Assembly (NCBI GenBank): GCA_025463055.1
Contig: JAOAPV010000065.1
Coordinates: 1-64,000 of the forward strand
Direction of reading: 5' to 3'
Length of the DNA stretch: 64,000 bases
Origin: Candidatus Acidiferrum typicum
Lineage (GTDB): Bacteria; Acidobacteriota; Terriglobia; Acidiferrales; UBA7541
Shown here: positions 3,163 to 57,877 of the stretch, piece by piece
Numbering within the stretch: the first letter of the stretch is position 1
How the letters are laid out: each line of letters starts with the position of its first letter
The notes under the pieces: generated by a model
What the model saw: only the letters and a program-made list of their open reading frames with translations
What the model was told of the DNA's origin: nothing
Database searches by the model: none
Translations under genes and position numbers: made by a program

Positions 3163-3200
3163 AGGGCTGCCACGCAATCCATACATAGGACAATCAAGTC

Positions 3201-5027
3201 TTGAGAATTCAGGATTTCAACGAGCGGTTGAAAGATTCCATCCTCATCGCCGATGGCGCTATGGGCTCGATGCTGCACGAATCCGTGGGTACGCAGCGCT
3301 GCTTCGACGAGCTAAATTCCACGGAGCCGGAGGCGGTCTTTCGGGTACACCAGGCTTACATTGAGGCCGGCGCGCAAATCATCGAAACCAACACGTTCGG
3401 CGCCAATCGCTTCAAGCTCGAACCGCTCGGCCTCGCCGACGAAGTGCAACGGCTTAATGGTCGCGGAGTAAAAATCGCCCGCGAAGCGCGTGATTCCGCC
3501 ACGCGCGAAGTGCTCATCGCCGGTTCCATGGGCCCGCTCGGCATCGGCGTGCAAGCCCGCCATCCGGAGCCCGACGAAATCCTGGGCATTTTTCGAGAGC
3601 AAGCGCTCGCTCTCGAGGAACGCGGCGTTGACCTATACATTCTCGAGACATTTAACTACATCGAAGAAATTATTCTTGCCATCGACGCAATTCGCTCCTT
3701 CTCTGGCCTCCCGATAATCGCGCAACTTACCTACTCCGAAGAGGGCACGATTTTCGGCGACATGCGTCCCGGCGCGGTGGCCGCGCTGCTGAAAAGCAAA
3801 AACGTGCAGATTATTGGCGCGAACTGCACGCTTGGCCCGCAATCTCTGCTTCCTATTCTTCAAGAACTTGCGGGAATTGATGATCTGCGCATCAGTGGCA
3901 TGCCCAACGCGGGCTTTCCGAAGCGAGAAGGCGATCGCATCGTGTACCCCAAATCCTCACCGGAGTATTTCGCCCTTTTTGCCCGCGAAGCTGCCGCCCT
4001 CGGCACGAGGATTCTCGGCGGCTGCTGCGGCACAACGCCCGCGCATATTCGTGCCATGGCGGAAGCGGTGAAGGCGTTAAAACCTGTGAAGGCGGCATCG
4101 GTCGCGCACGTCCAGACGGTAATCAAGCCGGTGCCGGTTTTAGATCGCGAACCGGAAAGCAAATTTTGGAAAAAGCTGCAGAAGAATGAATTCGCCGTTT
4201 GCGTCGAAATCGATCCGCCGAAAGGTATTGCGTTAGACAGGGTCTACGAGCAGGTCGACAAAATCATGGCCTCGCGCAAAGTCGATGCGATCGACATCAA
4301 CAGTGGCGCGATGGCCCGCGTTGGCATGGACGCGCTAATCACGGCGGGCGCGCTCGAAGCGCGGGGCGTGGAAACCGTGCCGCACCTGACCACTCGCGAC
4401 TACAACATCATCGGCCTGCAGGCCATGCTTCTCGGAGCTTGGACGGTAGGCGGCGTTCGCAACGTGCTCGCCATCACTGGCGATCCTCCGTCCGTTGGAG
4501 ATTATCCGGAAACCAGCGGCGTCTACGAAGTTGATTCCGTAGGCCTCGTGAAAGTTCTGCATCGCTTAAACCAGGGCACCGACTGGGCGGGAAAAACGTT
4601 GGGCGGCGCTACAAACTTTGCGATTGGCGTCGCTGTCAACCCGGTCGCCGATGATCTCGACGGTGAGATCGAACGCTTCCGCGCCAAGATCGAAGCCGGC
4701 GCCCACTTCGCGATGACCCAGCCGCTCTTCGATCCCGAACACTGGTACGCCTTCTTGAAGAAAATCGGCGGGACGCCGCCCATTCCGGTGCTCATCGGGA
4801 TTTGGCCGCTGAATAGCTACAAACAGGCGTTGCGCCTCAATAATGAAGTTCCGGGCATTGTCATTCCGCAGCCGCTCCTGAAATCTTTGGAAGCTGCGGG
4901 CGCCGCTGCGCGCGATCGTGGCTTCGAGTGCGCGCGCGAAATGCTGGCTTGGTCGCGTACAGAAATGGCCGGCGCGTACCTAATCGCGCCCTTCAAACGC
5001 TACGAAGAAGTCCTCGACATCTTATAG
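3201..5027 (+). CDS. Bifunctional homocysteine S-methyltransferase / 5,10-methylenetetrahydrofolate reductase
   Basis: A 608-residue two-domain protein. Residues 1-290 form a homocysteine S-methyltransferase barrel with the zinc-binding Cys209 (G-A-N-C) and Cys275-Cys276 (G-G-C-C-G-T-T). Residues from about 325 form a MetF-type reductase, with N-E-F-A-V-C-V-E-I-D-P-P at its start and A-I-T-G-D-P-P in the flavin/folate site. The fusion resembles Bacillus YitJ and would link methyl-THF formation to methionine synthesis. The start is TTG at 3201 with AGGA ten bases upstream. It follows the cystathionine beta-synthase by 38 bases, so the two probably form an operon controlling homocysteine fate. 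Confidence 0.9.
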   Translation: MRIQDFNERLKDSILIADGAMGSMLHESVGTQRCFDELNSTEPEAVFRVHQAYIEAGAQIIETNTFGANRFKLEPLGLADEVQRLNGRGVKIAREARDSATREVLIAGSMGPLGIGVQARHPEPDEILGIFREQALALEERGVDLYILETFNYIEEIILAIDAIRSFSGLPIIAQLTYSEEGTIFGDMRPGAVAALLKSKNVQIIGANCTLGPQSLLPILQELAGIDDLRISGMPNAGFPKREGDRIVYPKSSPEYFALFAREAAALGTRILGGCCGTTPAHIRAMAEAVKALKPVKAASVAHVQTVIKPVPVLDREPESKFWKKLQKNEFAVCVEIDPPKGIALDRVYEQVDKIMASRKVDAIDINSGAMARVGMDALITAGALEARGVETVPHLTTRDYNIIGLQAMLLGAWTVGGVRNVLAITGDPPSVGDYPETSGVYEVDSVGLVKVLHRLNQGTDWAGKTLGGATNFAIGVAVNPVADDLDGEIERFRAKIEAGAHFAMTQPLFDPEHWYAFLKKIGGTPPIPVLIGIWPLNSYKQALRLNNEVPGIVIPQPLLKSLEAAGAAARDRGFECAREMLAWSRTEMAGAYLIAPFKRYEEVLDIL

Positions 5028-30475: not shown

Positions 30476-32083
30476 TCAAGAACCCTGGACAAACGCGTCA
30501 CCGGCCTGTAGTACCGCCTGGCGGTCGATTGTACCGTCGGCGGCGAGAGGCAAAGCGTCCAGCAGGATCAGAGCTTCGGGCCACAAATCGTTAGACAGTC
30601 GCGATTTGCAGTGATCCAGTATCTGATCGGCCAGTCTTTGGCGCTGTACAGCTCTACCTGGCATGTTTGCGTAGCGTTCTACATCCTCACTACCTAATTC
30701 TGGCCTGGGCCAATCAACGATCGGGCCGGCCAATTGCTCGTCGGGACCCATCTTTTGAAAGACAGCCTCATAGCTGCCGTCGCTACGACAGGACGTCCAA
30801 CTGAGATTGACCCGATAACGGAGCTCTTCGCCGACAGACCATAAGTTCCCGGGATCGATGGCTCGCGGAACGAGAGTGTCGAGTCTCTTTCTAAGGTCGT
30901 CGACTGTATCTTGGTCATCTGGATTTTCCAGAGCCGCAAGCGCGTGCATGTCCCTCTCTATCCGCGCGTTTCCAATTCTCTTTATCGCCAGAAGCTCGGG
31001 CTTTTGGTCGCGCAGTAGTTCGGCAATGTTTTGCAAGGTGAGCGGCTGCTCGACCCAATCGAGCCATGAGAGTGCGACGGGCCCCGACGATGGAGTTCCC
31101 ACATGAAGGGTAACGTTGAAGCGAAAACGCGTGAGTTCGTTATCGCATCGGCCTCGTTTCGGCCGGACTTCGACCTTTGAGATCTTCGGGATTCGCCGCT
31201 GCAGAGCCATAAAGAAGGCGGGAGATATTACCAATTGTTCCTCGAACTCGGTTCGCCGAAAAGCACGTTGGCGGAGCTCGATAAGCTTCATGTGCGGCGG
31301 GGCCTGGTACAACTCGACAGAAGCCGCATAGAGGTCAAGGAGCGCGAGATTGCGCACATCCCCAACAAAGATCCTCCCGCCTGGCTTGACTACTCGACAT
31401 GCTTCCTCCAGCACTTTCGCCAGATAAGCAGCACTCGGAAAATGTTGCAACACTGAGTTGAGTACGATTGTATCGAAGGAAGCGTCGCCAAATCCTTCGA
31501 AGTTGTCGGCAGACCGCTCGAGCAGGGTAACGCCGTTCCAGTCCGCGCCGATTTCGAGCATCTGTTGTTTGAGTTTCCCGAGCACAGTGGGGGCAAAGTC
31601 CATCCCGACGTAACGCCTGACGCCGCGAGCGATCCGCAGCAGAAGCAGTCCCGTGCCGCAGCCGATTTCTAAGATTTCCCGCGGACAGAAGGACAATATC
31701 TCCTGAACCGTGAGATCGACCCACTCCAGCATCTGATCAGCCGGTATCGGCATTCTGGTATAACTGCTGTTCCATCCGGCAATATTGAAGCCGGGTTCGG
31801 AGGCGCCCGCCTGTTTGCCAAGCTGCGCAAGATCGAACGTCTTGCGCCATTTGTAGACTCGTTTCTCTTGATTGTCTGGATCGGCCAAGGCCCGGCTGAT
31901 GTAATTTTCATCCGGGACGATGCAGGCCACGAGATTACTTGTTCTCAGATTGGCATCCTCGCGGAAGGCAGCCGCAGCTTGTCGCACACCTTGATGTGCT
32001 AATAGAGTGGCCTCCAGTTCCCGCAGCTTGGCTAATTGAGAATCATGCATGGGATAGCGGCGCCGGCTTGTTGGAAGGGGCAA
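30476..32083 (-). CDS. Free-standing NRPS-type methyltransferase within an adenylation-domain C-terminal fragment
   Basis: Up to 535 residues. The N-terminal 50 residues look like the end of an A8 region (E-A-T-L-L-A-H-Q-G-V-R-Q-A). A class I SAM methyltransferase of the NRPS-embedded kind follows: F-N-I-A-G-W-N-S-S-Y-T, then I-L-E-I-G-C-G-T-G-L near residue 138, L-N-S-V-L-Q-H-F-P, and V-K-P-G-G-R-I-F. The end returns to an A10-like motif (L-P-L-A-A-D-G-T-I-D-R-Q-A-V) in which the catalytic lysine of N-G-K is threonine. There is no A-core, so it cannot adenylate alone. The start is TTG 32083 or ATG 32050. Last gene of the operon. Confidence 0.85.
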   Translation of the reverse strand: MPLPTSRRRYPMHDSQLAKLRELEATLLAHQGVRQAAAAFREDANLRTSNLVACIVPDENYISRALADPDNQEKRVYKWRKTFDLAQLGKQAGASEPGFNIAGWNSSYTRMPIPADQMLEWVDLTVQEILSFCPREILEIGCGTGLLLLRIARGVRRYVGMDFAPTVLGKLKQQMLEIGADWNGVTLLERSADNFEGFGDASFDTIVLNSVLQHFPSAAYLAKVLEEACRVVKPGGRIFVGDVRNLALLDLYAASVELYQAPPHMKLIELRQRAFRRTEFEEQLVISPAFFMALQRRIPKISKVEVRPKRGRCDNELTRFRFNVTLHVGTPSSGPVALSWLDWVEQPLTLQNIAELLRDQKPELLAIKRIGNARIERDMHALAALENPDDQDTVDDLRKRLDTLVPRAIDPGNLWSVGEELRYRVNLSWTSCRSDGSYEAVFQKMGPDEQLAGPIVDWPRPELGSEDVERYANMPGRAVQRQRLADQILDHCKSRLSNDLWPEALILLDALPLAADGTIDRQAVLQAGDAFVQGS

Positions 32084-32089
32084 GCAACT

Positions 32090-32350
32090 CTACTCTGCTC
32101 TGCTTGGAGACTTCGCGGTTCGGATTAGCAACTGAATCGCATCAATACTGTCGATTTGTGTTTCATCGAACCCGGTCTCGGTGAAATCGATTCCAAATTT
32201 CTCCTCAAGGAGGACGACAACCTCCACAGCCTCGACCGAACCGAGCCGTCCGCTCAGAAAAAGAGAACTTTGGTCGGAGAACGACTGCCTGTCGCCCCTG
32301 AGCGCCAGTAACTTTTTGAAGAAGACACGAATTTCCTCGATGCGGTCCAT
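32090..32350 (-). CDS. Acyl/peptidyl carrier protein
   Basis: An 86-residue carrier protein. The phosphopantetheine serine is predicted as Ser38 in G-R-L-G-S-V-E-A-V-E-V, followed by the classic helix L-L-E-E-K-F-G-I-D-F and I-D-S-I-D-A-I-Q-L-L. The usual D-S is G-S here, as in some specialised carriers. It lies 7 bases after the MBOAT stop and 6 bases before the methyltransferase gene. In the operon it would hold the acyl group activated by the adenylation enzyme; DltC is the closest functional parallel. Confidence 0.88.
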   Translation of the reverse strand: MDRIEEIRVFFKKLLALRGDRQSFSDQSSLFLSGRLGSVEAVEVVVLLEEKFGIDFTETGFDETQIDSIDAIQLLIRTAKSPSRAE

Positions 32351-32357
32351 TAGTTCC

Positions 32358-33788
32358 TCACAAGTTCAGGTTGAATAAGTGCGCAAAAAAGCGGAAGTGC
32401 TCGGTCAAGGGGTAGTTCCTCTCCGTGGAACCAAATACGTCCAGCAGACAATAGACGAGCACTACCGAGAAGGACGGCAGGAGTCGAGCTCGAATGAATC
32501 CGGGCGGCATCGGGCTGCGTGGACGCAACCGTGAGATGCTGATTGCGGTCGCAAGGGCGAAGCAATAAAAAAGGTAAACCTGATAACCCTGGAGAGCGCG
32601 CGCGAGCCCCAAAGAATAAACGAGGTTCAGATCTCGTGAAAAATGGTAAAACGCGTTACCAAAGCAGGCAGCGGCGAATATAGAAACGACAAGGCGGAGC
32701 TTCTGGTTCTTTCTGAAACAACGTAGAAAGATCGGATAAAAGAAAAAGTCCACCAGCAGTTCTTTGAAATAAAAATAGTAGCGATTAAAGAATTCGGCGA
32801 CCGTACGAGAGGACAGCGGCCGGTACGTGTTCCGCAGCGCATTGAAGCCTGCCATACGGCAGCAGGCGATGATGGTGTGTCCAAAAATGGAGAGCGAAAT
32901 AATGCCGCCGAAGAAGTTTCCGATCAAACTGGCCCAGCAGACATACCAGGGCAAGTGAACGTGGCTGGCGCTAAGAGACAAAGCCTGAGAATAGGTGGGA
33001 ATCGGGAAAGACTCGTAAATGTAGTGCTGGTAGAAATTGGAAAACAATGAAATCAGACTAGCCCACGCTAATAGCTTTAAGCCCTTTAGCTGTGTGATCG
33101 CGAGTTGCTCCGCGTTGCGGGCTTCAATCCGGCGCAAATAGGCGGCTCCCTTCGCGAACGGCGTATTCGTCGAGCCCCAGAAAGGGCGGTAGCAGCCCAG
33201 TTGAAGGCCGAACCTATCGTGGTCCTCGAGCTTTGCGTCGAGTAGAGAATAGCCGATGAACCACATGTAGGTGGACAGCATATAAGTGAAATCCCATAGA
33301 GGATGACTAAACCAGACGTTCTGCGGGGCGGTTGCGGCAATCAGCACGAGCGCCGCAAAGCCAGAAAGAAAGATTAGAATCGTGTTGCGACCATACCAGG
33401 ATCGAGGCCAGCGTGCCGCCGACCAAAACAAGAAAGCACCCAGCAACAGCGTGAGACAAAGAAGAGTAACGACGTAAAGGGGTCTCTTAAAGCTGGTCCA
33501 AGTCACTAAGAACGCGAACGCCAGCGTACTCAGTGTTAGCAGTATCCGCCGCTGGCCCGGCAAAAACGTAATCAGCGCCAGGAACAAAATCAGAGGTTCC
33601 CAAGATTGGTGGTTGTACGCCAAACCGAGGCCGAAGAGAGCCAGCAGCACGAGTTTGCCAGCTAGTGTCTGGGCAAAAGCAACCACTGCTGGGTAAGTCT
33701 CAATGCGTGGGATTAGACGAAAATTTGCAAGCGCGCCGGCGGGTAGCGGCGCGAGTTCCCGAGGCGTTGTTGGCAGTGAGACGCTCAA
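32358..33788 (-). CDS. Divergent MBOAT-like membrane acyltransferase
   Basis: About 476 residues with ten or more transmembrane helices, of MBOAT (DltB-like) type. The region equivalent to the canonical R-x-x-H-I-S-x-x-x-x-x-D-Y motif reads F-F-N-R-Y-Y-F-Y-F-K-E-L-L-V-D-F-F-F-Y-P. A candidate catalytic histidine is in G-N-A-F-Y-H-F near residue 381 instead of G-L-W-H-G. The TTG start at 33786-33788 overlaps the upstream stop TGA and is preceded by GAGGG, implying translational coupling to the adenylation gene. It likely moves the carrier-bound acyl group across the inner membrane onto an envelope acceptor (inference). Confidence 0.75.
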   Translation of the reverse strand: MSVSLPTTPRELAPLPAGALANFRLIPRIETYPAVVAFAQTLAGKLVLLALFGLGLAYNHQSWEPLILFLALITFLPGQRRILLTLSTLAFAFLVTWTSFKRPLYVVTLLCLTLLLGAFLFWSAARWPRSWYGRNTILIFLSGFAALVLIAATAPQNVWFSHPLWDFTYMLSTYMWFIGYSLLDAKLEDHDRFGLQLGCYRPFWGSTNTPFAKGAAYLRRIEARNAEQLAITQLKGLKLLAWASLISLFSNFYQHYIYESFPIPTYSQALSLSASHVHLPWYVCWASLIGNFFGGIISLSIFGHTIIACCRMAGFNALRNTYRPLSSRTVAEFFNRYYFYFKELLVDFFFYPIFLRCFRKNQKLRLVVSIFAAACFGNAFYHFSRDLNLVYSLGLARALQGYQVYLFYCFALATAISISRLRPRSPMPPGFIRARLLPSFSVVLVYCLLDVFGSTERNYPLTEHFRFFAHLFNLNL

Positions 33789-35359
33789 ATTTTTCCCTCG
33801 TCCAAAAGTGCCACCAACTCCTTCCGGTTCACTTTGCCATTGGCATTGAGCGGCAGCGAATCGATGCGATGGATTGTGCTCGGAACCATGTAGCTGGGTA
33901 CCTGGCTCGTGATCCGCGCCTTTACGTCGGGGGCGTCCATTCCAATCTGCCCGCTTACGAAAGCCACAATTCCGTTTGCTGATCCGTGGTCCACCGGCCA
34001 CGCTACCGCTGCGACGGAATCAGTTCCGCAAATTTCCCGTAGATATGCCTCAACTTCTTCCAATTCCACACGCAGCCCGCGAACCTTAACTTGGTTGTCG
34101 ATCCTTCCCAGGTGGTGAAACGTTCCGGTCGAATCGCGGTAAGCAAGGTCGCCGGTGCGATACCATCGTTTTCCCTTTAGCACCGGAAAGCTCTCAGTAG
34201 TTAAGTTTTCTTCGCGGAAATATCCGGAACTGAGCTGCGGTCCACCGAGCAGCAATTCGCCTTGCTCGCCTTCTGGAAGAAACTGGAGAGAAGAGCCTGC
34301 GATGGCCGCCTCCATTCCTGGAAACGGAACGCCGATGGCCACGACTCCGCGGTTAGGCGTCGCGTTCTGGGATCCGAGAAATCGCTGTCCGATGCACACG
34401 ACGGTGGCTTCAGTGGGGCCGAAAAGGTCATCGACCACACTGTTGTGTGCAGCATCCTTCCACGCCTGCGCAGAGGTTACCGGGAGCGGTTCGCCGGCAA
34501 ATAACGAGTAGCGCAGCGTTGGCATCAGGCCAGCGCGCATCATTTTCATTCTGCGCATGCCGCTGATGACGGAGGGAACCGTGAAAATAACCGTGCACTT
34601 TCGATCCTGGACGAAACGAACCGGCGCCATCAATTGCGTTGACGGAACAACGTGGAGCGACCCCCCAGAACTCCAGGTAACAAACACATCAAATACCGAG
34701 ATGTCGAAGGTCGTTTCGGTCATTCCTGCGACGCGGTCAGAAGGTTCGAGAGCGTAACGCCTCTGCATGACGGAAACGAAGTGAGCGACTGCGCCCGCCG
34801 TGATCATCACTCCTTTGGGAATGCCTGTCGTGCCGGAAGTGAAGATGATGTAGGCGAGATCATCGGCTTTGATGGGCACAGGCTGATCCTGGGGGTCGAA
34901 GGCTGGAAGTGCATCTCGGCCTGCGATCATTGCGTTTTGCCGATGGGGCGTTGCTACAGAAGTGGCAAACTCCGGAGACAAGATGAGAAGCGGACAGTGA
35001 GCCAATACGCGCTGCGAGAGCAAGGGCAAGCTCTCGGAATCGACCACCAGAACGTCGGCTTGAATTCGGCTCAGGAGTTGGATCAGCCGATCCTCCGGAA
35101 GCTTGGCGCTGATCGGCACATAAGCGCCGCCGGCCCAACAAGTTCCAAGGATACCCACATACGTCGAGAGGCTTCTGGAAGCGAGAATACCCACCTTGGG
35201 AGCCGCCGACCGGATATTGCAGCGAAGCCAGCCGGCGAAGGGCTGAACGAGGCGGCACAATTGACTGTAGCTCACTTCCTGGGTACCGATCGAAAGAGCA
35301 AGATGGTCCGGAAATTTGAGACAGCTCTCGCGGAATCCGTGGGCAAGGTTTAGGTTCAT
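33785..35359 (-). CDS. Stand-alone amino-acid adenylation enzyme (DltA-like)
   Basis: A 524-residue complete adenylation domain that would activate a carboxylic or amino acid with ATP and load it on the adjacent carrier. Core motifs in order: A3 Y-I-I-F-T-S-G-T-T-G-I-P-K-G (about residue 172), A4 T-F-D-I-S-V-F-D, A5 L-F-G-P-T-E-A-T, A7 Y-R-T-G-D-L-A, A8 G-R-I-D-N-Q-V-K-V-R-G-x-R-V-E-L and A10 N-A-N-G-K-V-N-R-K-E with the catalytic lysine. No carrier or condensation domain is attached. It is first in the operon. The F-D-I-S-V pocket suggests an amino acid, but specificity is unresolved. Confidence 0.9.
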   Translation of the reverse strand: MNLNLAHGFRESCLKFPDHLALSIGTQEVSYSQLCRLVQPFAGWLRCNIRSAAPKVGILASRSLSTYVGILGTCWAGGAYVPISAKLPEDRLIQLLSRIQADVLVVDSESLPLLSQRVLAHCPLLILSPEFATSVATPHRQNAMIAGRDALPAFDPQDQPVPIKADDLAYIIFTSGTTGIPKGVMITAGAVAHFVSVMQRRYALEPSDRVAGMTETTFDISVFDVFVTWSSGGSLHVVPSTQLMAPVRFVQDRKCTVIFTVPSVISGMRRMKMMRAGLMPTLRYSLFAGEPLPVTSAQAWKDAAHNSVVDDLFGPTEATVVCIGQRFLGSQNATPNRGVVAIGVPFPGMEAAIAGSSLQFLPEGEQGELLLGGPQLSSGYFREENLTTESFPVLKGKRWYRTGDLAYRDSTGTFHHLGRIDNQVKVRGLRVELEEVEAYLREICGTDSVAAVAWPVDHGSANGIVAFVSGQIGMDAPDVKARITSQVPSYMVPSTIHRIDSLPLNANGKVNRKELVALLDEGKI

Positions 35360-35581: not shown

Positions 35582-37300
35582 TTAGGCGGGAGCGGTGTAA
35601 TGTTTGCGGATGGCGTCGAGAATTTGTGTGCGGCTTTCCGAAGGTCCTAGCTGTCCATTCTTCTCGATTTTTGCAACTTCCTCGGCGACGGCAGTGTCCT
35701 TCACGGAATTGCGCAGCCACTGCGAATAATCTGCCTGGCGGAGATGGTGAGCCCAAGTATCTTCGTCCACACCTTCGGCGATTTGCGTAAATGTTTTGAG
35801 ATTTTGCGCGCGCAGGTTGAGCTTGCCGTCGGCCCCACGGAAGTAAAAACTCTTGTCTTCTCCCAATTCCCCCGTTGCATATTTGCGGCGGTGGCGGCGA
35901 AGCTCTGTTTTTGCCGGTTCTACTTTCACTTTTACGGGTTGCGGCGATTCGCAAAACCACCACGCGACGACTTCGCCTGCTTCTCGAGGGGGATCCGGTA
36001 GCGATTGCGGCCGCAAATCCTTGCCAGCGCCGGCGCTAAACTGCTGGATAACGCTGGCTGGATTTGGCCCGACAGCGATTAATCCATTAGTGGAACTCAG
36101 AATTGCGCGCGCGACCTGATCAAGATGCACCGTGACGAGAGCAAAACTCGCCAGCTCTTTGGGTATAGTCAAACCGGCTGAATCCAGTGTGGCGGGCAGT
36201 AGGTGATGCGCTTCGTCGATGATTATCCAATGCGGCCGGCCTGTTTTGGCGCGAAGCTCCTGAATTCGCGAGAGGAAACTCATGAACACGGACGGACGGT
36301 CCGCCAGCGGAACGCCCAAGAGATTGACACTTACTGAGTACTCCATGGCGTTTAAAACTTCGAGGACTTCGGAAATGCCGGGCACTTGCTGAGGGCCGCC
36401 GAGCGTTACAAACCGCTCAAACTCGTCATAGTCGCCTTCGGGATCAAATATACAGACCTGATATTTCTTTTCCACCAATCGTTCCACGATTGCGGCTACG
36501 GTCGTCGATTTGCCGCTGCCAGACGGTCCTGCAATCGCCAATCGCGAGTCATAGGGATCCAAAGCGAAATCGCCGCCCTGCTCCGTGCGTCCCAGAAAAA
36601 TGCGACGGCGTTTTAGACGCGGTGCCAAACTTGCCAAATCTTCCGAAAGAAGCTTTTCGATCAGCTCTTCCACCCCGGCGCCATGCGAGCCGGCGGTTAC
36701 CAGATCAGCGCGCTCCTTCAAAGCAGGCAAAGCATTTGCTACGGCCACGCTGCATTCGCACATGCTAAGGAAAACGTGATCGTTTTCCGCGTCGCCCACG
36801 CCCACCGCGTTGTGCGGCGAGAGATGCAATTCCTTCAAAGCAACTTTCAAGCCCGTTGCTTTGTTAATGCCGGAAGGCAGCACCATTACAGCGTCTTTGT
36901 TGAAGATAACCTGTAGTTCGAGGCCAAGGTCGCGAATCACCTCTAGCACCGTGGATTCATGAGGGTGCCATGTCGCCACGATGCATTTCCCTATTGATAG
37001 TGGCTTCACCCCGCGCCGACGCAATTCATCGACAAACTCCGGTGCTGGTGGGTCGGCGAGTGCTTTGCAGTCCTTACTCTCCGGCCGATAAAGAATCGCG
37101 CCATTTTCCGCAACGATTCGCTCGAAGATGGAGTGCTCGGGGAAAACCTCTTGTAATTCGGAAAGCTGCCGCCCGGTAGCTAAAATTAGTTTCCTGCCCG
37201 ACGCACGTACGCGCTTGAGAGCGTCGATGGTGCTGGGCGCACAGCGTCCATCGTGGGCGATGGTGCCGTCGTAATCGCAAACGAGACAGAAATAGCGCAT
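35582..37300 (-). CDS. HAD-IIB phosphatase fused to HerA/DUF87-like ATPase
   Basis: A 572-residue fusion. Residues 1-225 are a Cof-type HAD phosphatase with C-D-Y-D-G-T (both aspartates), L-I-L-A-T-G-R and G-D-A-E-N-D-H. Residues from about 240 form a HerA/VirB4-like ATPase with Walker A G-P-S-G-S-G-K-S-T (about 257) and Walker B W-I-I-I-D-E-A-H-H (about 357). A charged C-terminal domain of about 120 residues follows. The HAD half suggests sugar-phosphate or nucleotide-phosphate hydrolysis; the ATPase half is normally a DNA or protein pump. The combined role is unknown. A single-gene unit. Confidence 0.85.
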   Translation of the reverse strand: MRYFCLVCDYDGTIAHDGRCAPSTIDALKRVRASGRKLILATGRQLSELQEVFPEHSIFERIVAENGAILYRPESKDCKALADPPAPEFVDELRRRGVKPLSIGKCIVATWHPHESTVLEVIRDLGLELQVIFNKDAVMVLPSGINKATGLKVALKELHLSPHNAVGVGDAENDHVFLSMCECSVAVANALPALKERADLVTAGSHGAGVEELIEKLLSEDLASLAPRLKRRRIFLGRTEQGGDFALDPYDSRLAIAGPSGSGKSTTVAAIVERLVEKKYQVCIFDPEGDYDEFERFVTLGGPQQVPGISEVLEVLNAMEYSVSVNLLGVPLADRPSVFMSFLSRIQELRAKTGRPHWIIIDEAHHLLPATLDSAGLTIPKELASFALVTVHLDQVARAILSSTNGLIAVGPNPASVIQQFSAGAGKDLRPQSLPDPPREAGEVVAWWFCESPQPVKVKVEPAKTELRRHRRKYATGELGEDKSFYFRGADGKLNLRAQNLKTFTQIAEGVDEDTWAHHLRQADYSQWLRNSVKDTAVAEEVAKIEKNGQLGPSESRTQILDAIRKHYTAPA

Positions 37301-54146: not shown

Positions 54147-55580
54147 ATGCTCTTTGACTCGCCCGCCTACTTTATTTTTCTGATTCCGGTTGTGATTATT
54201 TATTGGCGCCTCAATCGCCAGCAACAGAACGTCTTTCTGTTGCTGGCGAGTTACCTTTTTTACGGCTGGTGGGACTGGCGCTTTCTTGCGCTGATGATCT
54301 GCAGCACAACGGTGGATTTTCTCATTGCGCAGAAGATTTCCGCCAATAACGGGGATACAAATCGCAAAAAGTGGCTCATCTTCTCGCTCATACTGAATTT
54401 CTCCGTTCTCGGAGTCTTCAAATATTTCAATTTCTTTGCGGATTCGTTATCAACCGCCCTAGATACGCTGGGCGTGCATAATATTCCTCTGCCCGTCATA
54501 CGTATCCTGCTTCCGCCGGGCATATCTTTTTATACGTTCCAGGAAGTCGCGTACATCGTGGACGTCTATAAGGGAAGGCTCGAGCCCGCGAAATCTTTTA
54601 TCGAGTATGGACTATTCGTCAGCCTGTTTCCGCACCTGATTGCGGGCCCAATTCAAAGGCCGGGGCACCTTGTCCCTCAGGTACAAACGGATCGCCGCTT
54701 TGACGCGGACCGATTTTTCGATGGGCTGATGCTGATTTTTTCCGGGCTGGTACGCAAGTGCGTGGTCGCGGACAATTGCGCTCTGCTGGCAAATGCGGCT
54801 TTTGGCGGGCAACTCGGAGCACCGAATCTCTGGGTTGTTCTGATCGGAACGTATGCGTTCGCATGGCAAGTATATGGAGATTTCAGCGGCTACAGCGATA
54901 TCGCCCGCGGCAGTGCACGATTGCTGGGCTTTCATTTCATGATCAACTTCCGGCAGCCGTTTCTGTCCCGGCGGCTGCAGGACTTTTGGCGGCGCTGGCA
55001 CATTAGCTTGAGTACCTGGCTCCGCGATTACTTGTACATTCCCTTGGGTGGTAGTGCCGGTGGGGAATGGAAAACGTCCGTGAATCTACTGAAGACAATG
55101 ATCCTGGCTGGCCTTTGGCATGGCGCAAATTGGACGTTCGTCATCTTTGGTGCGATTCATGGCGTGGTCTTGGGCCTGGAACGGAGGCTTTTCCCAACGG
55201 CTGTAAAGCCCGGTGATGCGGCTCAGCCTCGACCCGTTGTTGCTTTCTTCTCGTTGTGGGGACAGCGGATCTTAACGTTCAACATTTTTTGCTTGAGCTT
55301 GGCTTTCTTCCGGGCGACATCCTTGCACGCGGCGATACAGTTTCTGTCTGGATTATCTAATTTCGCATGGCGCAGCGAATATGCATCCGCGTTATTCATG
55401 CTTAGCATTTTCTCGATGCCTTTATTCGCAGTGGACCTGTTGCTGGAAGCCAGCAACCAGGAATACCCGTTTGCGAACGCCTCGTACGCATTTCGCACCG
55501 GACTCGCGAGCGTCGCGCTCGTCCTACTGACACTATTTTCGGGGAACGCTTTCAATGCCTTCGTCTATTTCCGATTCTAA
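54147..55580 (+). CDS. AlgI-type MBOAT O-acyltransferase
   Basis: A 477-residue membrane protein of the MBOAT family with the full signature: F-W-R-R-W-H-I-S-L-S-T-W-L-R-D-Y-L-Y-I-P-L-G-G and the catalytic G-L-W-H-G-A-N-W. In alginate synthesis AlgI moves acetyl groups to the periplasm for transfer to sugars. It overlaps the next gene by 26 bases, suggesting that the two act together to acetylate the exopolysaccharide. It differs clearly from the degenerate MBOAT at 32358. Confidence 0.93.
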   Translation: MLFDSPAYFIFLIPVVIIYWRLNRQQQNVFLLLASYLFYGWWDWRFLALMICSTTVDFLIAQKISANNGDTNRKKWLIFSLILNFSVLGVFKYFNFFADSLSTALDTLGVHNIPLPVIRILLPPGISFYTFQEVAYIVDVYKGRLEPAKSFIEYGLFVSLFPHLIAGPIQRPGHLVPQVQTDRRFDADRFFDGLMLIFSGLVRKCVVADNCALLANAAFGGQLGAPNLWVVLIGTYAFAWQVYGDFSGYSDIARGSARLLGFHFMINFRQPFLSRRLQDFWRRWHISLSTWLRDYLYIPLGGSAGGEWKTSVNLLKTMILAGLWHGANWTFVIFGAIHGVVLGLERRLFPTAVKPGDAAQPRPVVAFFSLWGQRILTFNIFCLSLAFFRATSLHAAIQFLSGLSNFAWRSEYASALFMLSIFSMPLFAVDLLLEASNQEYPFANASYAFRTGLASVALVLLTLFSGNAFNAFVYFRF

Positions 55581-56562
55581 ATCGCGCTGCCTGCTCTATT
55601 GCAAAGTTTTGGCGGGGATTTGCGCGAGCTTGCTCGCGGTGATCGAAATTTCCTCCATTTATCTGCTCAAGCGTCACTCGCCCACGTACGCGCGAATTTC
55701 CCGGCAATACAGCGAAGCAGGGAAGATCCGCCCTGCTGGACCTGGCGAGCCGGCAAATGTGCTGATGGTGGGCAATTCTCTGCTGCTGCATGGAGTTGAA
55801 CTGGATCGTTTGCGGACGTTGACTTCCGCGAGAATGAACATCTATCCCATTTTTCTTGAAGCTACGGGCTACTACGATTGGCTGTACGCGCTACGTGAGC
55901 TATTCCGGCAGGGGGCTAGACCGCAGGCGGTCGTTCTCGGTGTGGGTGTCAATTATTTTCTCGCGGATGGCGTGCGTCAGGATTATGCCCCCATGCTTTT
56001 CTTTAGCGCTGGAGACACGCTCGCCGTTTCTTCGGATTTACATCTGGACCGGACGGCGACAAGCAATCTACTGCTTGCGCATTCCAGCACTTTCTGGGAT
56101 ACGCGGAGCGCCATTCGAACACAGGTTCTTAGTCACGTGGTTCCTCACCTAGAAGACCTCTTCATGCTGGTCAATCAGAGGCCGACCGTTCCAGAGGGCA
56201 GGGAGTTTGAAGAGATTGTTATGCCCCGATTGCGGAGGATGCAGGAACTGTGTGAAGCGCACGGAGCCAAACTGATTCTGCTGGTCCCGCCGACGCTCTC
56301 CGCGGAGAGTGCGATCGGCGAGATGGCTTACGCAGCGCACAAGGCAGGGGTCGATGTGTCAGTGCCAATTGATCCAGCGGCCCTTTCCGCAAACTTTTAC
56401 CAGCGCGACGGAATGCATCTCAATAGCCAAGGTGCAGTTGTTTTCACATCAGCGCTGGCTAAGGATCTTCCCGACAAGGTTGCGACGCACAATACACTTG
56501 CCTCCCGCCCCGTGCGGCAAAGTTCATCTCTAGCTCCGGAGATTGCTGACCGTGAGCACTGA
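55555..56562 (+). CDS. SGNH-like acyltransferase/hydrolase partner of AlgI
   Basis: A 335-residue protein with an N-terminal membrane anchor (L-A-G-I-C-A-S-L-L-A-V-I) and an SGNH-like pattern: block I G-N-S (Ser75 in V-G-N-S-L-L-L-H) and a late D-x-x-H in R-D-G-M-H-L-N near residue 285. The middle blocks are divergent. It is probably the periplasmic acetyl-transfer enzyme working with the AlgI-type protein, like AlgJ/AlgX. The start at 55555 overlaps the algI-like end by 26 bases. Family assignment is moderate. Confidence 0.7.
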   Translation: MPSSISDSKSRCLLYCKVLAGICASLLAVIEISSIYLLKRHSPTYARISRQYSEAGKIRPAGPGEPANVLMVGNSLLLHGVELDRLRTLTSARMNIYPIFLEATGYYDWLYALRELFRQGARPQAVVLGVGVNYFLADGVRQDYAPMLFFSAGDTLAVSSDLHLDRTATSNLLLAHSSTFWDTRSAIRTQVLSHVVPHLEDLFMLVNQRPTVPEGREFEEIVMPRLRRMQELCEAHGAKLILLVPPTLSAESAIGEMAYAAHKAGVDVSVPIDPAALSANFYQRDGMHLNSQGAVVFTSALAKDLPDKVATHNTLASRPVRQSSSLAPEIADREH

Positions 56563-57877
56563 AGCTCCAGGCGTATTTGCCGTGGAACAAGGCAAACGTG
56601 CTTCTCTGCGCGCCGATTTCAGCTGGATGTTGGTGGGGAATGCAATTTATGCGGGCGGGCAGTTTGCGACGCTGATGCTGCTGGCCAAGATGGTTCGGCC
56701 GGAACTAGTCGGGCAGTACGCTTTGGGCCTCGCCATCGTATATCCCGTGATGATGCTCACGAACATGCAACTAAGGGCCGTTATGACCTCGGGGGCTCGG
56801 CAGCAAACCCATTTCGGCGATTACCTGAGTTTGCGCCTGCTGACGACGTCGCTGGCAATTGTGATTATCTTCGCGATCACCCAAGTTCTAGGCTATCGCG
56901 GGGACCTGACAGCGGTGGTGCTGATGGTGGGCGTAGGTTATGGCATCGAGACCATCAGTGACGTCTATTACGCGCGGCTTCAGTTGCACGACAAAATGGC
57001 TGAGATCTCCAAATCATTGATTGCGAGGGCAGTGCTATCCGTGCTTGGACTGGCAATCGCAACCTATATCAGCGGGAGCGTTCTATGGGGAATCGCGGGT
57101 GTTGTGCTTGCGCGTGCAATCGTTTTCATCGGTTACGACATTAGCGAGTCTACGCACGGCCTGGGCAGGCAATCCAATTGGTTTTCTCGAACTGAGGAGC
57201 TGACGCCTCGTTTCAACCTCAAAGTGCAAGGCGAATTACTGTGGCTCAGTCTTCCCCTTGGCATCGTGGTGCTCCTAACGTCCCTAAACTCCAACGCGCC
57301 GAGCTATTTCATCCAGCATGCACTCGGGGACCGCGATCTGGGTATTTTCTCGGCAATGGGATTCATGATTTCGGTGGGAAACATGGCTGTGGTCTCGCTT
57401 GGGCAGTCGGCGTTCACGCGCCTAGCGAGGTCGTATGCAGATGGAAACCTCATAGCATTTGGTTCGTTATTGGGAAAGCTCCTCGCGTTTGGGGCAATGC
57501 TGGGAGTCTCTGGAATGGCTGTTTCCAAATTAGCAGGGCGCGAGATCCTTACGATCGTATTCCGGCCCGAATACGCCGAACGCGCAGATCTTCTTCCCTG
57601 GTTCATGGCGGCCGGAGGAGTCCTGTTTATGGCGCAGTTTTTGGGATTTGGAATGACTGCGGCGGGGTATTTCAAATCGCAAGTCGTACTTAATATTTTG
57701 GCAAACCTAAGTCTTTTCGCTGCCTGCTATTGGTTCGTCGCACGGCAAGGGCTGTTGGGTGCGATCATTGCGATGCTAATTGCTGCGATTGTGCAGCTTG
57801 CCGGGAGCGCGATGGTTCTCGTCAGAAGCATGCGACTCCACACTCAGGTGTGCGCCCGAAACGTCGAAACCGCATGA
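56552..57877 (+). CDS. Polysaccharide flippase (Wzx-like, MATE/MVF superfamily)
   Basis: A 441-residue protein with about twelve to fourteen transmembrane helices, starting with a 20-residue polar N-terminus. Residues such as N-A-I-Y-A-G-G-Q-F-A-T-L and V-G-Q-Y-A-L-G-L-A are typical of lipid-linked repeat-unit flippases. GTG 56552 is preferred because GGAGA lies nine bases upstream; TTG 56543 would sit directly on that site. It overlaps the previous gene by 11 bases and the next by four. Confidence 0.85.
   Translation: MSTEAPGVFAVEQGKRASLRADFSWMLVGNAIYAGGQFATLMLLAKMVRPELVGQYALGLAIVYPVMMLTNMQLRAVMTSGARQQTHFGDYLSLRLLTTSLAIVIIFAITQVLGYRGDLTAVVLMVGVGYGIETISDVYYARLQLHDKMAEISKSLIARAVLSVLGLAIATYISGSVLWGIAGVVLARAIVFIGYDISESTHGLGRQSNWFSRTEELTPRFNLKVQGELLWLSLPLGIVVLLTSLNSNAPSYFIQHALGDRDLGIFSAMGFMISVGNMAVVSLGQSAFTRLARSYADGNLIAFGSLLGKLLAFGAMLGVSGMAVSKLAGREILTIVFRPEYAERADLLPWFMAAGGVLFMAQFLGFGMTAAGYFKSQVVLNILANLSLFAACYWFVARQGLLGAIIAMLIAAIVQLAGSAMVLVRSMRLHTQVCARNVETA

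Follow-up and report, generated by a model that had tools for sequence, protein, structure and literature searches.

What a Dlt-like set of genes does in a diderm bacterium is the question raised by four genes on the minus strand (30476 to 35359) of a 64,000-nucleotide stretch of Candidatus Acidiferrum typicum DNA, the whole of which is here called the window. The genome to which the window belongs, as contig C115, spans 5.33 Mb in 146 contigs and is 98.9% complete. An LpxC gene was found in that genome; this indicates a diderm host able to synthesize lipid A precursors and bears out the Gram-negative setting named in a preliminary description of the locus. A PPTase-family gene was found as well. 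We refer to the four genes as A (adenylation), MBOAT-like (B), ACP (carrier, C), and MT (methyltransferase) and to the set as the cassette.

Layout and products of the four genes

The A gene encodes a stand-alone amino-acid adenylation enzyme of 524 amino acids (33785 to 35359, minus strand; the open reading frame runs from 35359 to 33788 and the stop codon extends to 33785). The next gene encodes a predicted MBOAT-fold membrane acyltransferase of 476 amino acids (32358 to 33788, minus strand, with the stop codon extending to 32358), and its TTG start at 33788 overlaps the A stop codon by 4 bases (ttga). After a gap of 7 bases, the ACP gene encodes an 86-amino-acid carrier protein with a PP-binding domain (32090 to 32350, minus strand; open reading frame from 32350 to 32093, stop codon to 32090). 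The MT gene encodes a core-less interrupted adenylation domain of 535 amino acids (30476 to 32083, minus strand, stop codon to 30476) and begins 6 bases beyond ACP if translation starts at TTG 32083, or 39 bases beyond it if translation starts at the in-frame ATG at 32050, which is perhaps more likely. The four minus-strand genes are packed as originally described, with the same reading-frame ends, an overlap of 4 bases, and gaps of 7 and then 6 bases, and no adjoining NRPS, named there as grounds against an operon, was found beside the cassette. Also on the minus strand, at 35582 to 37300, lies a 572-amino-acid open reading frame in which, as judged by eye, a HAD-type phosphatase and a HerA-like P-loop ATPase domain are apparently fused.

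The A protein matched both Pfam AMP-binding (5e-68) and AMP-binding_C. Against NCBIfam models, A barely exceeded the cut-off for general amino-acid adenylation (TIGR01733, 318.0 bits versus 317.4) but fell below those of the DltA models TIGR01734 (233.9 bits versus 559.85) and PRK04813 (241.9 bits versus 476). In GrsA, the amino group of an alpha-amino acid is bound by D235 and its carboxyl group by K517, and both residues, in GrsA numbering, were retained in all 19 aligned A sequences. The specificity code read as DIFFLALVVK in the window, DPGGSGLVDK in three beta-proteobacterial loci, and DLHMICIVVK/IK in two Alphaproteobacteria, with the code positions placed by hand against the GrsA sequence, such that the alpha-amino-acid anchors can be read and the amino acid cannot be named. 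Prediction of adenylation specificity, which had been proposed as a check, pointed to the class of substrate but not to its identity. As the pocket code varies by clade, one substrate common to all A proteins is unlikely. At one deltaproteobacterial locus (L026, 4590 to 9563), two adjacent A genes with the codes DPFYLVVVVK and DLFFLCLVAK accompany one ACP. The window ACP exceeded the cut-off for Pfam PP-binding (26.4 bits versus 20.8) but not that for the DltC model TIGR01688 (16.2 bits versus 52.35), and the phosphopantetheine-site residue Ser38 was invariant in 20 of 20 aligned sequences.

The MBOAT-like protein matched no Pfam or NCBIfam model, such that the suggested search of profile databases succeeded for A, ACP, and MT (all matched in Pfam) and failed for this protein. 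Moreover, its profile found no match up to an E value of 10 among the sequences of solved structures. An AlphaFold model built with 22 homologues had a pLDDT of 89.7, and the best solved structure for that model was DltB (Foldseek E value of 1.2e-5; VIA-align Z of 23.7 and rmsd of 3.8 over 367 aligned residues), with PORCN, HHAT, and MBOAT7 ranking below it (Z of 18 to 20). We conclude that the likeness to DltB is a match of predicted fold and not family membership by sequence.

When the MBOAT-like profile was compared to a profile of 14 canonical MBOATs (97% probability, E value of 7.9e-11), the segment RTIAEFWNRYY was paired with the canonical SRxIxDFWxRWH motif. The histidine of the canonical RWH is replaced by Tyr or similar in the MBOAT-like proteins, and this replacement upholds the earlier statement that the MBOAT motif is divergent. 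A different histidine, H382, was kept in 21 of 22 homologues (the next best, H304, was at 86%) and probably occupies the place expected of the second, catalytic-type MBOAT histidine. We note that H382 was equated with H336 of DltB from motif order and from the offset, about 49 residues, at which the aligned range ends, as the profile alignment left the histidines unpaired. Both the fold and the conserved histidine that mark the MBOAT superfamily were thus found.

The MT protein contains Methyltransf_11 (2.8e-17) and an AMP-binding_C fragment. Residues 22 to 522 aligned with residues 450 to 920 of PDB 5wmm (E value of 9.8e-56), which we take to be the interrupted adenylation domain TioS A4. Consistent with the NRPS-type methyltransferase first proposed, Methyltransf_11 lies inside the AMP-binding_C subdomain, and MT resembles TioS A-Mb-A (PDB 5wmm, PMC11355689) in covering the M domain together with the adenylation C-terminal pieces on either side of it. 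Unlike TioS A-Mb-A, the window MT is a separate gene and the adenylating core is absent; MT does not join core, M domain, and C-terminal pieces in one protein as an interrupted adenylation domain does. An AlphaFold model of MT made from three sequences was poor (pLDDT of 51.3) and was left out of the evidence. We conclude from its alignment that MT is an interrupted NRPS adenylation domain reduced to its C-terminal half, without the adenylating core. Inserted M domains methylate the carrier-loaded residue and not the free substrate, and TioS A4 is listed with main-chain N-methylation (PMC11355689).

Linkage of A, MBOAT, and ACP across lineages

A scan of genome contigs for relatives of the MBOAT-like protein with a single sequence found none. 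A profile from a four-sequence alignment recovered 21 loci from GTDB genomes with titles in the Acidobacteria and in the Alpha-, Beta-, Gamma-, and Deltaproteobacteria, and a search within the phylum added two more. The closest titled relatives were Acidobacteria MAGs. Of 36 genomes of the genus, four contain the MBOAT-like gene; A and ACP accompany it in all four and MT in two. In the order of Bosea, the MBOAT-like gene was present in 3 of 397 genomes, Bosea included; the two new loci were found by the MBOAT profile alone, and both have A and ACP. The named strain among the carriers is Bosea sp. Root381, which is culturable. A collection of plasmids held no match to the Bosea MBOAT.

A, MBOAT, and ACP occurred together at 21 of 26 distinct loci from Acidobacteriota and Proteobacteria, a frequency well beyond chance. 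Two of the remaining loci have ACP without A (one on a short contig), and at three (L019, L021, and L051) neither A nor ACP lies near the MBOAT. In the Burkholderiales loci L019 (7932 to 9434) and L021 (7953 to 9488), the MBOAT gene lies between a PEP-CTERM gene and scpA/scpB, and a different donor is possible there. Where the three genes are linked, their reading frames mostly overlap or nearly overlap. The order is A-B-C at most loci, B-C-A at L016, B-C-other-A at L017, and C-A-A-B at L026, and A-C lies on the strand opposite to the MBOAT gene at L024. The strongest argument for treating the three genes as one unit is that they stay linked despite such rearrangement. Moreover, the pairwise distances of A, MBOAT, and ACP correlated (r of 0.60 to 0.72, with none of 5,000 permutations as high), a correlation that partly reflects common descent.

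MT was present at 4 of the 26 loci, all from Acidobacteriota and each time after ACP. It was full-length at three and broken into two open reading frames at the fourth, L012, where the split over two reading frames (3169 to 4814) reflects either decay or sequencing error. No full-length MT homologue was found away from a cassette in the 36 genus members or in 15 other genomes with a cassette. Counted across relatives, as had been proposed, co-occurrence thus held for A, MBOAT, and ACP, in varying order, and not for the operon of four. We conclude that the conserved unit consists of three genes, A, MBOAT, and ACP, and an optional fourth, MT.

The four genes might instead be trans-acting parts of an NRPS encoded elsewhere in the genome. 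MT derives from an NRPS module, and condensation domains were matched four times in the genome, on contigs C8, C118, and C71. None of these matches is on the contig of the window, however. Both in Acidobacteriota and in several classes of Proteobacteria, the A-MBOAT-ACP linkage is kept while the order changes, and every locus that has A also has ACP. We regard service to a distant NRPS as highly improbable. We conclude that the cassette is genuine and thinly spread, across soil Acidobacteria and a scatter of Proteobacteria, and that its MBOAT family is missed by current profile libraries.

Shuttle parts, neighboring genes, and the acceptor

Dlt is, to our knowledge, the only MBOAT system fed by a carrier protein. 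The cassette shares with Dlt (DltA to DltD and DltX) the A-B-C order, an adenylation enzyme, a DltB-fold MBOAT, a stand-alone carrier, and, presumably, a carrier-bound aminoacyl donor. It differs in that the cut-offs for DltA and DltC lie far above the scores of A and ACP, the MBOAT-like protein is unmatched by DltB and MBOAT models and has Tyr for the RWH histidine, neither DltD nor DltX was detected, the hosts are diderm, and an optional methyltransferase is added. The likeness to Dlt first drawn from gene order thus extends to the logic of the three components and stops short of the DltA and DltC families. We conclude that, as far as the membrane step, the cassette probably operates as Dlt does, yet it is not a member of Dlt.

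In characterized bacterial envelope MBOAT pathways, a Tyr shuttle and an SGNH protein relay the acyl group to the outside, and an FXYXXF shuttle motif is common to PatA, similar MBOATs, and DltX (PMC12148441). DltD (PF04914) had no match anywhere in the 98.9% complete genome, whereas the Bacillus and Lactococcus controls were positive, and the reported lack of DltD was thus confirmed genome-wide. The C-terminal FXYXXF motif was found in 0 of 22 MBOAT-like proteins, no DltX-like small membrane open reading frame ending in FXYXXF was found near the window operon or at 21 related loci, and no SGNH protein was found in the window operon. The window cassette therefore does not have the terminal motif and SGNH partner of an MBOAT-SGNH pair. 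PatA/PatB-type systems resemble the cassette in MBOAT fold and conserved histidine and differ in their use of acyl-CoA, a terminal FXYXXF, and an SGNH partner (PMC12148441), none of which was found in the cassette.

The window contains a control. The only PF03062 match in the host genome (54594 to 55289) lies about 20 kb from the cassette in a canonical MBOAT gene on the plus strand (54147 to 55577), the product of which ends in FVYFRF. That gene is overlapped by an SGNH-like gene, recognized by eye, and followed by a flippase-like gene (54147 to 56563 in all), and the arrangement suggests a pair for exopolysaccharide O-acylation. A terminal FXYXXF is carried by nearly all canonical MBOATs that came up as weak matches and whose C terminus is intact. 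Because canonical MBOATs are positive, the motif test is sound, and its negative outcome carries weight as regards linked parts. An export route could still be completed by an SGNH protein that is unlinked and diverged or by a microprotein, as the genome-wide search covered PF04914 alone.

Such an export route would be needed if the cassette aminoacylated an envelope polymer, with an undetected shuttle and an unlinked SGNH protein delivering the group to LPS, capsule, or another surface glycan. Consistent with a polymer acceptor, the MBOAT fold is closest to that of DltB, a canonical MBOAT with an SGNH-like neighbor is present in the same window, and three loci have suggestive neighbors: L020 lies among clustered genes for a surface polysaccharide (WbuX amidotransferase and MurJ-like flippase), L014 has a CptA-type phosphoethanolamine transferase nearby, and at L052 a membrane protein of the sulfatase/LtaS superfamily adjoins A. 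Polysaccharide genes are absent beside most cassettes, however, that of the window included, and DltD was not found in the genome, the FXYXXF motif in any of the 22 MBOAT-like proteins, or a DltX-like frame near any cassette examined. We consider modification of an envelope polymer unlikely, though a serious contender.

Another product could be a secreted, lipid-like natural product, in which a diffusible molecule, for instance a fatty alcohol, would be esterified or amidated as the acceptor and the product exported. At L017 (3172 to 16557), the cassette is surrounded by an AMP-ligase/thioester reductase, a membrane spermidine-synthase-like protein, an FkbM methyltransferase, and an MMPL transporter, a set that looks like a lipid metabolite cluster with its exporter. 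Three Burkholderiales (beta-proteobacterial) loci have a fatty-acid desaturase in common on the opposite strand, and the clade-dependent specificity code would also suit varied products. Most loci are nonetheless bare cassettes of three or four genes with no other biosynthetic genes or exporters, and no polysaccharide, biosynthetic, or exporter genes lie beside the window cassette. A natural product is, in our judgment, improbable. Neighbor families other than MT recur at no more than two or three related loci, and neighboring genes were dropped as a guide to the acceptor because they differ between lineages.

A proposed pathway and its meaning

As the Tyr shuttle motif, DltX, and DltD or another SGNH protein were not found, a membrane-resident acceptor is most likely. 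With the shuttle parts missing from the vicinity of the cassettes, an acceptor embedded in the membrane is no less likely than the envelope acceptor across the inner membrane favored by the preliminary description. DGAT, LPCAT, and PORCN transfer directly to an acceptor inside the MBOAT, and transfer of this kind, without a shuttle, points to an acceptor resident in the membrane. We give roughly an even chance to a self-contained aminoacyl-transfer cassette in which the MBOAT transfers directly to a membrane-resident acceptor.

For direct transfer within the membrane, we infer the loading, the donor, the methylation, and, weakly, the acceptor. A would activate an alpha-amino acid as the adenylate and load it onto the phosphopantetheine arm of ACP, as its family suggests. 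In some Acidobacteriota only, the window included, MT would act as an M domain in its own right, mounted on an adenylation C-terminal subdomain that has become detached, and would methylate the aminoacyl group attached to ACP, with the alpha-nitrogen as the most likely site. On the strength of fold and linkage, the DltB-fold MBOAT may then take the aminoacyl thioester from ACP at the cytoplasmic face, and its conserved histidine may transfer the aminoacyl group to the acceptor. The acceptor would most likely be a membrane lipid or a lipid-linked molecule that presents its hydroxyl or amine within the MBOAT itself, and the product would be an (N-methyl)aminoacyl lipid or envelope modification.

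The open-access literature, which leaves out most subscription papers, contained no description of the cassette and no biochemistry of any member that we could find. AlmEFG of Vibrio, which glycinylates lipid A, is likewise Gram-negative and combines an adenylation enzyme, a carrier, and a membrane acyltransferase, but AlmG is not known to be an MBOAT. We tentatively propose, with a little less than even confidence, a carrier-dependent and SGNH-independent family of DltB-fold MBOATs that aminoacylate membrane lipids or lipid-linked molecules in diderms, in which an exchangeable A sets the substrate and Acidobacteriota N-methylate by way of a detached NRPS methyltransferase. If so, a Dlt front end without shuttle or SGNH protein would constitute a different pathway ending and possibly a further route to aminoacyl modification in Gram-negatives, and the split interrupted A domain would be a natural trans-acting NRPS methyltransferase.
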